From positions 186,001-250,000 of the forward strand of contig NZ_WEZF01000002.1 in NCBI RefSeq assembly GCF_009177065.1: a DNA stretch of 64,000 bases. The letters are read 5' to 3'. Positions within the stretch are counted from its first letter, which is position 1, and each line of letters opens with the position of its first letter. This DNA comes from Tautonia marina. Lineage in GTDB: Bacteria; Planctomycetota; Planctomycetia; Isosphaerales; Isosphaeraceae. This document shows, one piece after another, positions 58,711 through 61,278 of the stretch. Made by a program: the position numbers and the translations under genes. Under the pieces are notes generated by a model. It ran no database searches. It had not been told where the DNA came from and saw only the letters and a list, made by a program, of their open reading frames with translations.

Positions 58711-60075
58711 ATGACCGACCAGATGACCTCCGACGTCCGGGCCTTGATGGACCGCGACCCGTTCGACCTCTCCACCGTGGTCGATTTGCGCGAGTTGCTC
58801 GGCCGCGATCCCTCGCGCTACCGGACCCTCCGAGAGGCCGTTCAGAACATCAAGGACCGCGCCCAGGGAGGTGAACTGGAGCCGGATCTTCAACTCCGCC
58901 TCGGGGTCGCCGAAGTGCTGCACGGCCATTATCTCCAGGCCCTCGAACACCTGGAGAAGGCCGGGGATAGCGGCATGGCCCACTTCCATCGCGGTCTGGC
59001 CCTGGAAAACCTCCAGCGCTGGGAAGAAGCCGCCGACGCCTTCGCTGCTGCCGGCGAATCGGACTACGACGCCAAGCTCGCCACCCTGCACCGAGCCGGT
59101 GCCATGCGGCGGGCGGGCAAGCCGGACGTGGCTCGATCGCTGCTCAAACAGCTCGAAGGTCAGGCCGACGGCAAGGCCGAATACCATTATCAGATCGGCT
59201 GCCTCTTGGCCGACGATCGCGAGCAGATCGAAGCCGCCGCCGCCTTCGAGCGCGCCCTGGAACTCGACCGCGACCATACCGGCGCCCTGTTCCAACTGGC
59301 TTACATCAACGACCTTTACGGCAACGATGATGTCGCCGTCGATTACTATCGCCAGTGCCTCCGCCATCCGCCCATTCCCCTGGCCGCCCTCATCAATCTC
59401 GGCATCCTGCTCGAAGATGACCAGCGGTATCGAGAGGCGGAAACCTTCTACAACCAGGTCCTCGATCACCTCGGCAACGAGCCCCGCGCCCGGCTCTACG
59501 CCAAGGACTGCCGCGCCAGTCGCGACATGTACTACGACGAGAGCCTGGAAAAGCAGTACGACCGGCTCCGCACCTTGCTTGAAATCCCCGTGACCGACTT
59601 CGAGCTTTCGGTTCGTAGCCGCAACTGCCTGCGAAAGATGAACATCCGGACGCTCGGCGACTTGACCCGAACCACGGAGGTCGCCTTGCTGGCCTCCAAG
59701 AACTTCGGGGAAACGTCGCTGTCCGAGATCAAGCAGATCATGGACACCAAAGGGCTTCGCCTCGGCATGGCTCTCGAATCGGCCGAGCGAGGCCCGGCGC
59801 TGTCCCGCCCCTCGCATCACGCCCCGGCTGCGAGTGGTCCTTCGGCGATTGAAGTTTCTCCCGAAGAACGAGCCATCCTGGGTAAACCGATCAGCGAGTT
59901 GAACCTGTCGGTTCGATCGCGCAAGTGCATGTCGAAGTTGAACCTCCAGACGATCGGCGACCTTGTCAGCCGAACCGGAGACGAATTGCTCGAATGCAAG
60001 AACTTCGGCGTAACCTCGCTGAATGAGGTGCGGGAGAAGCTCTCAGAGATGGGGCTCAAGCTGCGGAACGACTAA
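58711..60075 (+). CDS. TPR protein with two tandem RNA polymerase alpha-CTD domains
   Basis: A 454-residue protein, cytoplasmic by sequence. Residues of about 60-270 form TPR repeats (VLHGHYLQALEHLEKAGD, AAAFERALELDRDHTGALFQ). Two domains like the C-terminal domain of the RNA polymerase alpha subunit follow, at about 294-356 and 394-454, split by a Pro/Ser linker. Both have the LSVRS..C..LGDL..L..KNFG..SL pattern. By alignment to E. coli alpha, copy 1 keeps the DNA-contact residues Arg265 (R302), Asn268 (N305), Gly296 (G333) and Ser299 (S336). Copy 2 keeps the Arg but has Lys (405) at Asn268. Alpha-CTD binds UP elements and activators, so a role in transcription is likely but inferred. Confidence 0.88.
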   Translation: MTDQMTSDVRALMDRDPFDLSTVVDLRELLGRDPSRYRTLREAVQNIKDRAQGGELEPDLQLRLGVAEVLHGHYLQALEHLEKAGDSGMAHFHRGLALENLQRWEEAADAFAAAGESDYDAKLATLHRAGAMRRAGKPDVARSLLKQLEGQADGKAEYHYQIGCLLADDREQIEAAAAFERALELDRDHTGALFQLAYINDLYGNDDVAVDYYRQCLRHPPIPLAALINLGILLEDDQRYREAETFYNQVLDHLGNEPRARLYAKDCRASRDMYYDESLEKQYDRLRTLLEIPVTDFELSVRSRNCLRKMNIRTLGDLTRTTEVALLASKNFGETSLSEIKQIMDTKGLRLGMALESAERGPALSRPSHHAPAASGPSAIEVSPEERAILGKPISELNLSVRSRKCMSKLNLQTIGDLVSRTGDELLECKNFGVTSLNEVREKLSEMGLKLRND

Positions 60076-60150: not shown

Positions 60151-61278
60151 ATGGCCGCCCCCGTTCGATTCGAATTGCTCGCGGTCGACTCCGGTTCGGC
60201 CGCGCGCTGTGGTCTGCTGCACACCCCCCACGGGACGGTTGAAACGCCGATCTTCATGCCGGTCGGCACCCAGGCAACCGTCAAGGGAGTTGTCCCCGAT
60301 TTGCTCCGGGCGTCGGGCAGTCGAATGCTCCTCGCCAACACCTACCACCTGGCCCTGCGGCCCGGCGAGGCGGTGGTCGAACAGCTTGGCGGCCTGCATC
60401 GATTCATGGCCTGGGACGGTCCGATCCTGACCGACTCGGGTGGTTTTCAGGTCTTCAGCATGAGCGACCGTGTCACCCTCTCCGAACGAGGAGTGGCGTT
60501 CCGGTCGCATCTTGACGGTAGCCTGCTCGATTTGACCCCCGAGCGGGCCATTGCCATTCAGGAAGCCCTGGGTGCCGATGTGGCGATGGTCCTCGATCAT
60601 TGCCCCGCCTTACCGGCCGAGAAAGCCGCCATCGCCGAGGCCACCGATCGCACCGTCCGATGGGCCAAGCGTTGCAAGGAAGCCCGGACCCGCCCCGATC
60701 AGGCCGTCTTCGGGATCGTCCAGGGAGGAGCCCATGCAGACCTCCGAGGCGAGTGCGCCGAACGCCTCGTTGAAATCGGGTTCGATGGCTACGCGATCGG
60801 CGGCGTCAGCGTCGGCGAGTCTCCCGAGGAGATTCGCAAGGCACTTGAGGTCAGTACCCCCCATTTGCCCCCAGACCAGGCCCGCTATCTGATGGGGGTC
60901 GGTCGGCCGCAGGATGTCCTCGATGCGATCGCCGCCGGGGTCGACATGTTCGACTGCGTCTTGCCGACTCGAAACGGCCGCAACGCCACCTGCCTGACCA
61001 TGCAGGGCACGGTTCGCATGCGCAATGCCGTCCACAAGACCGACTCCCGTCCCATCGAGGAGGGGTGCCACTGTCCCGCCTGCTCTCAGTTCAGTCGGGG
61101 GTACATCCGCCATCTGTTCCTCGCCGACGAGATGCTCGGCCCAATTCTGGCCTCGGTCCACAACCTGGCATTCTTGCACCGGCTCGTTTCTCGGGCTCGG
61201 GAAGCGATCCAGGCAGGCCGTTACGTCCAATTCCGAGCGGAGACGCTTGAAGCCCTTGGCCCGTCGTCGGTAAAGTGA
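60151..61278 (+). CDS. tgt: Queuine tRNA-ribosyltransferase
   Basis: A 375-residue Tgt, which swaps guanine-34 of GU(N)-anticodon tRNAs for the queuine precursor. Landmarks are TPIFMPVGTQATVKGV, the catalytic ILTDSGGFQVFSM with its first Asp, LDHCPALP, GGVSVGE and PTRNGRNA. The zinc site is CHCPACSQFSRGYIRHL near 310-327 (three Cys and a His). Length and order are standard. It is followed by yajC and secDF, a common arrangement. The ribosome site before the ATG is weak. Confidence 0.96.
   Translation: MAAPVRFELLAVDSGSAARCGLLHTPHGTVETPIFMPVGTQATVKGVVPDLLRASGSRMLLANTYHLALRPGEAVVEQLGGLHRFMAWDGPILTDSGGFQVFSMSDRVTLSERGVAFRSHLDGSLLDLTPERAIAIQEALGADVAMVLDHCPALPAEKAAIAEATDRTVRWAKRCKEARTRPDQAVFGIVQGGAHADLRGECAERLVEIGFDGYAIGGVSVGESPEEIRKALEVSTPHLPPDQARYLMGVGRPQDVLDAIAAGVDMFDCVLPTRNGRNATCLTMQGTVRMRNAVHKTDSRPIEEGCHCPACSQFSRGYIRHLFLADEMLGPILASVHNLAFLHRLVSRAREAIQAGRYVQFRAETLEALGPSSVK

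Follow-up and report, generated by a model that had tools for sequence, protein, structure and literature searches.

The window analysed here, a stretch of 64,000 nucleotides of Tautonia marina, encodes a TPR protein that carries two RNA polymerase alpha C-terminal domains (alpha-CTDs) in tandem, the first of which (CTD1) is the constrained copy while the second (CTD2) drifts, decays or is lost. The parts are of known kinds; the combination of TPR and alpha-CTD, together with its pattern of constraint, appears to be new. We give an even chance to the reading that the protein is a trans-acting accessory promoter-binding factor of Planctomycetota, in which a detached pair of alpha-CTDs is borne on a TPR arm.

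Architecture and predicted fold

The open reading frame at positions 58711-60075 (+) is complete from ATG to stop and encodes 454 amino acids. In a Pfam scan, PF03118 (RNA_pol_A_CTD) matches two stretches of the protein at 140.5 bits (E 1.4e-41, cut-off 23.8), and several TPR models exceed their cut-offs in the N-terminal part, where the repeats stand in tandem. PF03118 likewise matches 69/69 members of the family alignment (A1). The TPR solenoid spans residues ~58-257 (58882-59481, +), as delimited by the Pfam TPR matches, the helices of the model and the conservation of the groove, and is followed by a helical connector, residues 258-289 (59482-59577, +), drawn from the model and from conservation, in which Asp266 (149/150) and Asp276 (147/150) are near invariant. 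CTD1 comprises residues 290-353 (59578-59769, +), on the agreement of Pfam, phmmer, alignments and model. A linker at residues 360-381 (59788-59853, +), with pLDDT <50 in the AlphaFold model, leads to CTD2 at residues 390-454 (59878-60072, +), placed by Pfam, alignments and model. The two copies share 46% identity over 65 residues, and CTD1 is 45% identical to the CTD of the one ordinary RpoA encoded in the 7.07 Mb T. marina genome. A scan around the gene for promoters and terminators found none.

The NCBIfam RpoA models align best with their own C-terminal ends, from which it follows that the alpha N-terminal domain (NTD) is absent; the RpoA model TIGR02027 scores 129.7, below its cut-off of 227.8. 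The arrangement described by the first-pass annotation, two tandem alpha-CTDs behind TPRs and no alpha NTD, is therefore confirmed. A second rpoA is rejected on the absence of the NTD, and for the same reason the protein should not assemble into RNA polymerase as alpha does. A phmmer search with the C-terminal 171 residues returned 52 PDB sequences at E <=1, which are named as alpha chains of RNA polymerase apart from one that is called just 'DNA-directed RNA polymerase'.

The whole-protein AlphaFold model has a mean pLDDT of 89.3 and a pTM of 0.62, with low confidence at residues 1-3 and 360-381. The 50 Foldseek matches listed for it are TPR-type or other helical-repeat chains, TPR solenoids on top, so that this search is uninformative on the CTDs. 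A model of the two CTDs alone, built with 48 of the 69 alignment rows, has a mean pLDDT of 81.1, and the 50 matches listed for it are RNA polymerase or alpha-CTD entries. CTD1 (model residues 1-75) aligns to 9zum_B, a Caulobacter alpha-CTD on A/T-rich DNA, with Z 12.7 and 2.4 A over 74 residues. CTD2 (model residues 103-170) aligns to 3n97_C, an E. coli alpha-CTD with sigma4 and UP DNA (Z 12.2, 1.6 A, 68 residues), and to 1lb2_E, an E. coli alpha-CTD with CAP and DNA (Z 12.5, 0.9 A, 66 residues). Each copy thus superposes on solved, DNA-bound alpha-CTDs at Z 12-13. The first-pass annotation had allowed that the domains might prove to be generic helix-hairpin-helix (HhH) modules; both model as alpha-CTDs, and some other HhH module is rejected since they retrieve alpha-CTD profiles as well as alpha-CTD structures. 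By homology, Arg302 of CTD1 is predicted to be exposed. The fold alone is no proof of DNA binding, since some CTD2s retain the domain without the contact residues.

Distribution, ancestry and a phage-borne copy

The whole-protein query matches 291/294 Planctomycetota genomes at E <=1e-5, and 155/155 of the genomes with completeness of at least 90% and contamination of no more than 5%. A match at E 1e-5 may be to the RpoA CTD alone, hence a stricter count, made by eye, in which 277/294 genomes reach 1e-29 or better. Fourteen of the 294 have only weaker matches by the same count, possibly to RpoA or to a contig-edge fragment, and the three without a match are 59-72% complete. Two of the fourteen are 90-92% complete: one (G143) has, at a contig edge, a fragment that includes CTD2 and the end of CTD1, and the other (G031, 90% complete) gives short or weak matches only, without a clear TPR-CTD gene. 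Among the matches listed, 65 of the 69 genomes that are at least 95% complete have at least three alpha-CTDs at E 0.001, a count of domains per genome irrespective of two sharing one frame; the remaining four have two, belong to one family (f45) and have a TPR protein with CTD1 only. One RpoA plus two TPR-protein CTDs is the pattern in the rows listed. The fusion of TPRs with two alpha-CTDs, which the first-pass annotation had proposed to look for across planctomycetes, is accordingly widespread. Separately, one genome with 5% contamination (G058) holds two full-length rpoA-like genes (C343:11892-12860 and C26:32544-33518), a pairing that could be due to contamination.

Of the best 80 of 363 relatives found by contig scan, 78 bear planctomycete names, one is a 'bacterium' and one is 'Candidatus Nealsonbacteria', a record that is probably misnamed. 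The closest of these 80 is a locus of Tautonia sociabilis, at 85% identity. On plasmids, 78 records match the query and none covers 80% of it in one place; the 20 listed cover 27-35%, within the CTDs, and those with an annotation are genes for RNA polymerase alpha. A plasmid-borne homologue is therefore rejected as far as these records go.

In a domain tree, CTD1, CTD2 and the planctomycete RpoA-CTD each occupy one side of a branch (99/96, 98/94 and 99/92), a result to be read as rough, the domain trees having 64 columns and bootstrap values that have not settled. Of the 150 family members it includes 25, and of the 32 RpoAs 24; compared with a second domain tree, it leaves out E. coli, two stand-alone domains and L121, L140, L141, L148 and L152, which include three long CTD2 branches, and adds L035, L037, L068 and L093. 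In the second tree, CTD1 and CTD2 again each take one side of a branch (94, 91), and RpoA needs two changes, since the stand-alone domains fall within it. Three separate clades imply that the two-CTD form probably predates the split of the sampled Planctomycetota; as far as these sequences indicate, the tandem CTDs are probably ancestral. Chance or a recent fusion is rejected on the wide spread and the three distinct clades.

The gene also appears to hold an old position. Upstream lies a gene for a DUF1570 protein, and downstream tgt (queuine tRNA-ribosyltransferase; 60151-61278, +; Pfam TGT 4e-150) starts 75 bp past the stop. Among 120 loci, 80 named and 40 unnamed, the most frequent downstream same-strand neighbours are a tgt-like gene in 62 (adjacent in 56), a SecDF-like gene in 42, a YajC-like gene in 40 and a RuvA-like gene in 23, always adjacent, where the ruvA, ruvB, queH, yajC, secDF, spoIID and kdsA labels were given by eye and HMM tests cover the tgt and DUF1570 proteins of the window. 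Four loci (L121, L140, L143 and L152) have the order TPR-CTD gene, RuvA, RuvB, QueH, SpoIID-like. It looks as if the gene heads a ruvAB/tgt/sec group of long standing rather than being a recent insertion. The neighbours had at first been taken to give no functional clue. They (tgt, secDF, ruvAB) indeed name no transcription pathway, but the recurrent place ahead of tgt-yajC-secDF or ruvA(-ruvB) is a sign of old vertical inheritance, and to that extent the earlier view does not hold.

In IMG/VR, a search with the family alignment turned up a free-standing CTD of this family on two contigs of 43.9 kb and 9.6 kb (IMGVR_UViG_3300033978_000436 and IMGVR_UViG_3300034019_001535), identical over 78 residues (L238:8001-8234, +). 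Its identity to the best-scoring CTD2 is 74%, to CTD1 55% and to RpoA CTD 53% (of 150, 150 and 32 sequences, respectively); it nests inside the CTD2 clade in a 12-row set (99/99), and its positions 265 and 268 are Arg and Lys. The larger contig is very likely phage, as it has a gene for a terminase large subunit (phrog_675, 4.5e-54) near the CTD and also encodes a dATP/dGTP diphosphohydrolase and a pyrimidine-dimer glycosylase. Judged from its sequence, the phage CTD is probably a captured host domain, and the identical stretch on both contigs probably reflects one virus lineage and one capture event, not a trend. Among annotated phages, a query with the CTD region matches 20 records: two with an rpoA annotation, two Salmonella records of >500 kb with an alpha-subunit gene, and the rest unannotated. 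The phage copy is an independent hint that CTD2 contacts something whose contact benefits a phage.

Contact residues, constraint and proposed function

The residues that contact the UP element, R265, N268, C269, G296, K298 and S299 in E. coli alpha numbering, are all present in CTD1 except K298, which is Thr; in CTD2, N268 is additionally replaced by Lys. CTD1 has Arg302 (=265), Asn305 (=268), Cys306 (=269), Gly333 (=296), Ser336 (=299) and Glu339 (=302), and CTD2 has Arg402, Lys405 (at 268), Cys406, Gly433, Ser436 and Glu439. Both residue claims of the first-pass annotation are borne out: copy 1 keeps the equivalents of Arg265, Asn268, Gly296 and Ser299, and copy 2 keeps the Arg with Lys in place of Asn268. 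Thr in place of E. coli Lys298, which the first-pass annotation did not mention, is common to CTD1, CTD2 and the T. marina RpoA, which reads Thr298 and Thr299. The sigma-contact pair Asp259/Glu261 is kept in CTD1 (Asp296, Glu298) and is Glu/Asn in CTD2.

These assignments hold across the family. In 110 rows of CTD1, R265 and C269 occur in 110, N268 in 109, and N294, G296, T298, S299 and E302 in 110 each; the 40 more distant members keep the same contact positions in 39-40/40. In CTD2, Arg265 is present in all 110 rows and in 40/40 of the distant members, and position 268 is Lys in 100 and Arg in 9 of the former and K19 R15 N3 H2 S1 in the latter. Lys dominates this position, so Lys405 is a family trait and not an accident, and contact residues that are maintained across 150 aligned members are not due to chance. 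In E. coli, R265 and N294 are DNA contacts and D259/E261 act with sigma70 R603, and Thermus RNA polymerase, with an alpha-CTD that lacks some DNA-binding residues, shows no UP-element stimulation (PMC5511352). The T. marina RpoD has a counterpart of R603 (...HPVRS...), located by eye against the E. coli sequence. In the same genome the RpoD C-terminal model has eight matches at E <=1e-20, one of them above the cut-off, which indicates several sigma-70 paralogues.

Constraint falls unevenly on the protein. In 18 genomes with both proteins, the median pairwise identity of CTD1 is 68.9%, against 54.1% for RpoA CTD, 51.4% for RpoA NTD, 37.4% for TPR residues 180-270, 36.7% for CTD2 and 21.1% for TPR residues 60-180, and CTD1 identity exceeds that of RpoA CTD in 127 of 153 genome pairs. 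In the 12 genomes for which both loci were retrieved, to which the larger set adds six divergent ones, the values are 75.4% for CTD1 and 57.4% for RpoA CTD. Position 259 is acidic in 18/18 CTD1s versus 10/18 RpoAs, and position 261 in 17/18 versus 14/18. Twenty-two weak or divergent genomes were searched again and 19 gave a match; of nine complete CTD1s among the most divergent members, seven read ELSVRSRNC and keep K-N-F-G-(E/D)-T-S-L, the exceptions being one with Thr at 268 (G284) and one with several contacts lost (G244). CTD2 has lost most of its contact residues in the four members of family f13 that were read (L204, L205, L207 and L209) and also in L206, and keeps them except at position 268 in L203 and L208. 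In four genomes CTD2 is gone altogether: the f45 members L193, L194, L195 and L196 have TPRs and CTD1, and the protein ends soon after CTD1. Of the earlier picture of two CTDs with different contacts, the difference in residues stands, and their equal partnership does not: constraint falls on CTD1, and CTD2 is subject to drift and, in one lineage, has disappeared.

A second conserved surface lies in the TPR arm. In the groove of the last two repeats (residues 190-257), F194 is kept in 147/150 rows, D201 in 120/150, E235 in 148/150 and D236 in 147/150, and the mean groove entropy of these repeats is 1.55 and 1.14 bits, against 2.16-2.69 for the four preceding ones, the groove residues being defined by TPR position numbering. 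The acidic character of the groove points to a conserved partner segment, probably basic, as its ligand.

In the promoter-factor reading that we prefer, CTD1 would most likely grip the A/T-rich, UP-element-like minor groove beside the -35 box and touch the main sigma factor at its region 4, in the manner of the alpha-CTD of RNA polymerase. The partner segment would be held by the last two TPRs, and CTD1 might thereby recruit this partner to promoters, or else retain polymerase there. CTD2, with Arg265 and Lys or Arg at 268, may be an accessory that offers a second, less specific grip on DNA or a lineage-variable protein contact, and lineages would be free to alter or drop it. The suggestion that the protein acts in trans like a regulator, with the TPRs as a binding arm, thus gains support as a possibility from its spread, the alpha-CTD models and the conserved groove. 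A bolder form, offered tentatively and as clearly less probable, is that the TPR-CTD1 unit serves as a third, mobile alpha-CTD on many promoters, reading UP-like DNA and sigma region 4 under stricter constraint than the CTD of RpoA, and that at least one phage subverts it with a captured CTD2. If true, Planctomycetota would have shifted part of the promoter job of the alpha-CTD to a separate protein.

The conservation of CTD1 could instead be due to a protein partner that recognises the same face. Taken further, the protein would be an adaptor among proteins: its CTDs would dock to activators, polymerase or NusA-like factors and bind no promoter DNA, and its TPRs would link transcription to another machine, for example translation or secretion. 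We think this unlikely, though it is the strongest of the alternatives. Alpha-CTDs do serve as protein docks as well (Spx, CAP and coupling-factor complexes are among the fold matches), the CTD2 domain is retained in several lineages that have lost its DNA residues, the phage has CTD2 alone, and the YajC-like and SecDF-like genes stand downstream in 40/120 and 42/120 loci. Docking alone, however, would not need the DNA-contact set of CTD1, and positions 265, 268, 269, 294, 296, 298, 299 and 302 are kept in 149-150/150 rows, which disfavours a role in docking only.

Less probable again is a decoy or titrator that would repress polymerase by sequestering activators or UP elements. With no assembly domain attached, the two alpha-CTDs could bind the same DNA as RpoA, in competition with it, and the phage CTD2 shows that free-standing copies exist; a conserved TPR groove, however, would be superfluous for a pure decoy. 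The decoying of activators, which the first-pass annotation had raised, looks unlikely in particular: positions 287 (Q54 A35 N6 and others) and 317 (F40 A33 N13 L11 and others), which are activator-facing in the E. coli alpha-CTD, vary in the 110 rows of CTD1, in which the sigma-facing pair is kept. Least probable is a DNA-repair or recombination factor partnered with RuvAB as an HhH-type DNA binder. In its favour, the alpha-CTD does belong to the wider helix-hairpin-helix fold and a RuvA-like gene is adjacent in 23/120 loci, with a RuvB-like gene next in four (by eye); against it, the adjacent gene is more often tgt (56/120), the Pfam scan finds no HhH family in the TPR-CTD protein up to E 0.1, and CTD1 keeps the sigma-contact residues.

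Comparison with known systems

Among the titles listed by full-text searches of open-licence papers, none is recognisably about a TPR plus alpha-CTD protein, which may nevertheless have been described elsewhere. For Planctopirus limnophila there is a genome-wide study of essentiality (PMC10632474), and the excerpts of it do not name the TPR-CTD protein, nor do those of a Verrucomicrobium essential-gene paper, a PVC signature paper and an alpha-solenoid survey. Several known proteins share single features with it. BREX PglW (NF033442, PDLC02512) has a model that contains an alpha-CTD-like stretch and shows weak similarity to the CTDs, but is a far longer kinase of a defence system; it is rejected on its whole-protein score, 20.4 bits where the cut-off is 990, as is a defence protein in general, PADLOC giving only the weak PglW match.

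Stand-alone alpha-CTD proteins (NCBIfam NF005841/PRK07758, a 95-position model) likewise have an alpha-CTD without an NTD, but consist of a single short domain and have no TPR. Two such frames are seen in planctomycete-type genomes, of 131 amino acids at L161:1369-1761 (+) and of 113 amino acids at L197:1102-1440 (-); their domains group among the RpoA-CTDs on a long branch and not with the TPR-CTD family. Another genome (G294) has a long open reading frame (L162:1087-3165, +) with two alpha-CTD-like domains and a sigma-70 region 4 in a single protein (Pfam 3.1e-12 and 1.9e-10).

In overall plan, the protein resembles the RRNPP quorum sensors (AimR, PlcR) and MalT, in which a helical-repeat arm for sensing or binding, a TPR peptide receptor in the RRNPP type, is joined to a DNA-reading HTH domain. 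The difference lies in the C-terminal part, which here is a pair of alpha-CTDs; Pfam gives no HTH family at E values up to 0.1. No RRNPP or MalT-type regulator is known to carry alpha-CTDs. If the promoter-factor reading is right, a detached alpha-CTD would serve a whole bacterial phylum as a general promoter factor, and transcription would be controlled at a level that is not known from other bacteria.

Among the closest known systems is the alpha subunit of RNA polymerase itself. With its CTD (PF03118; E. coli RpoA ~250-329) the TPR-CTD protein shares sequence, predicted fold and, in CTD1, the residues for sigma contact and, apart from Lys298, for DNA contact; unlike alpha, it has no NTD, carries the domain in tandem copies with Thr298 and, in CTD2, Lys or Arg at 268, and its domains form clades of their own.
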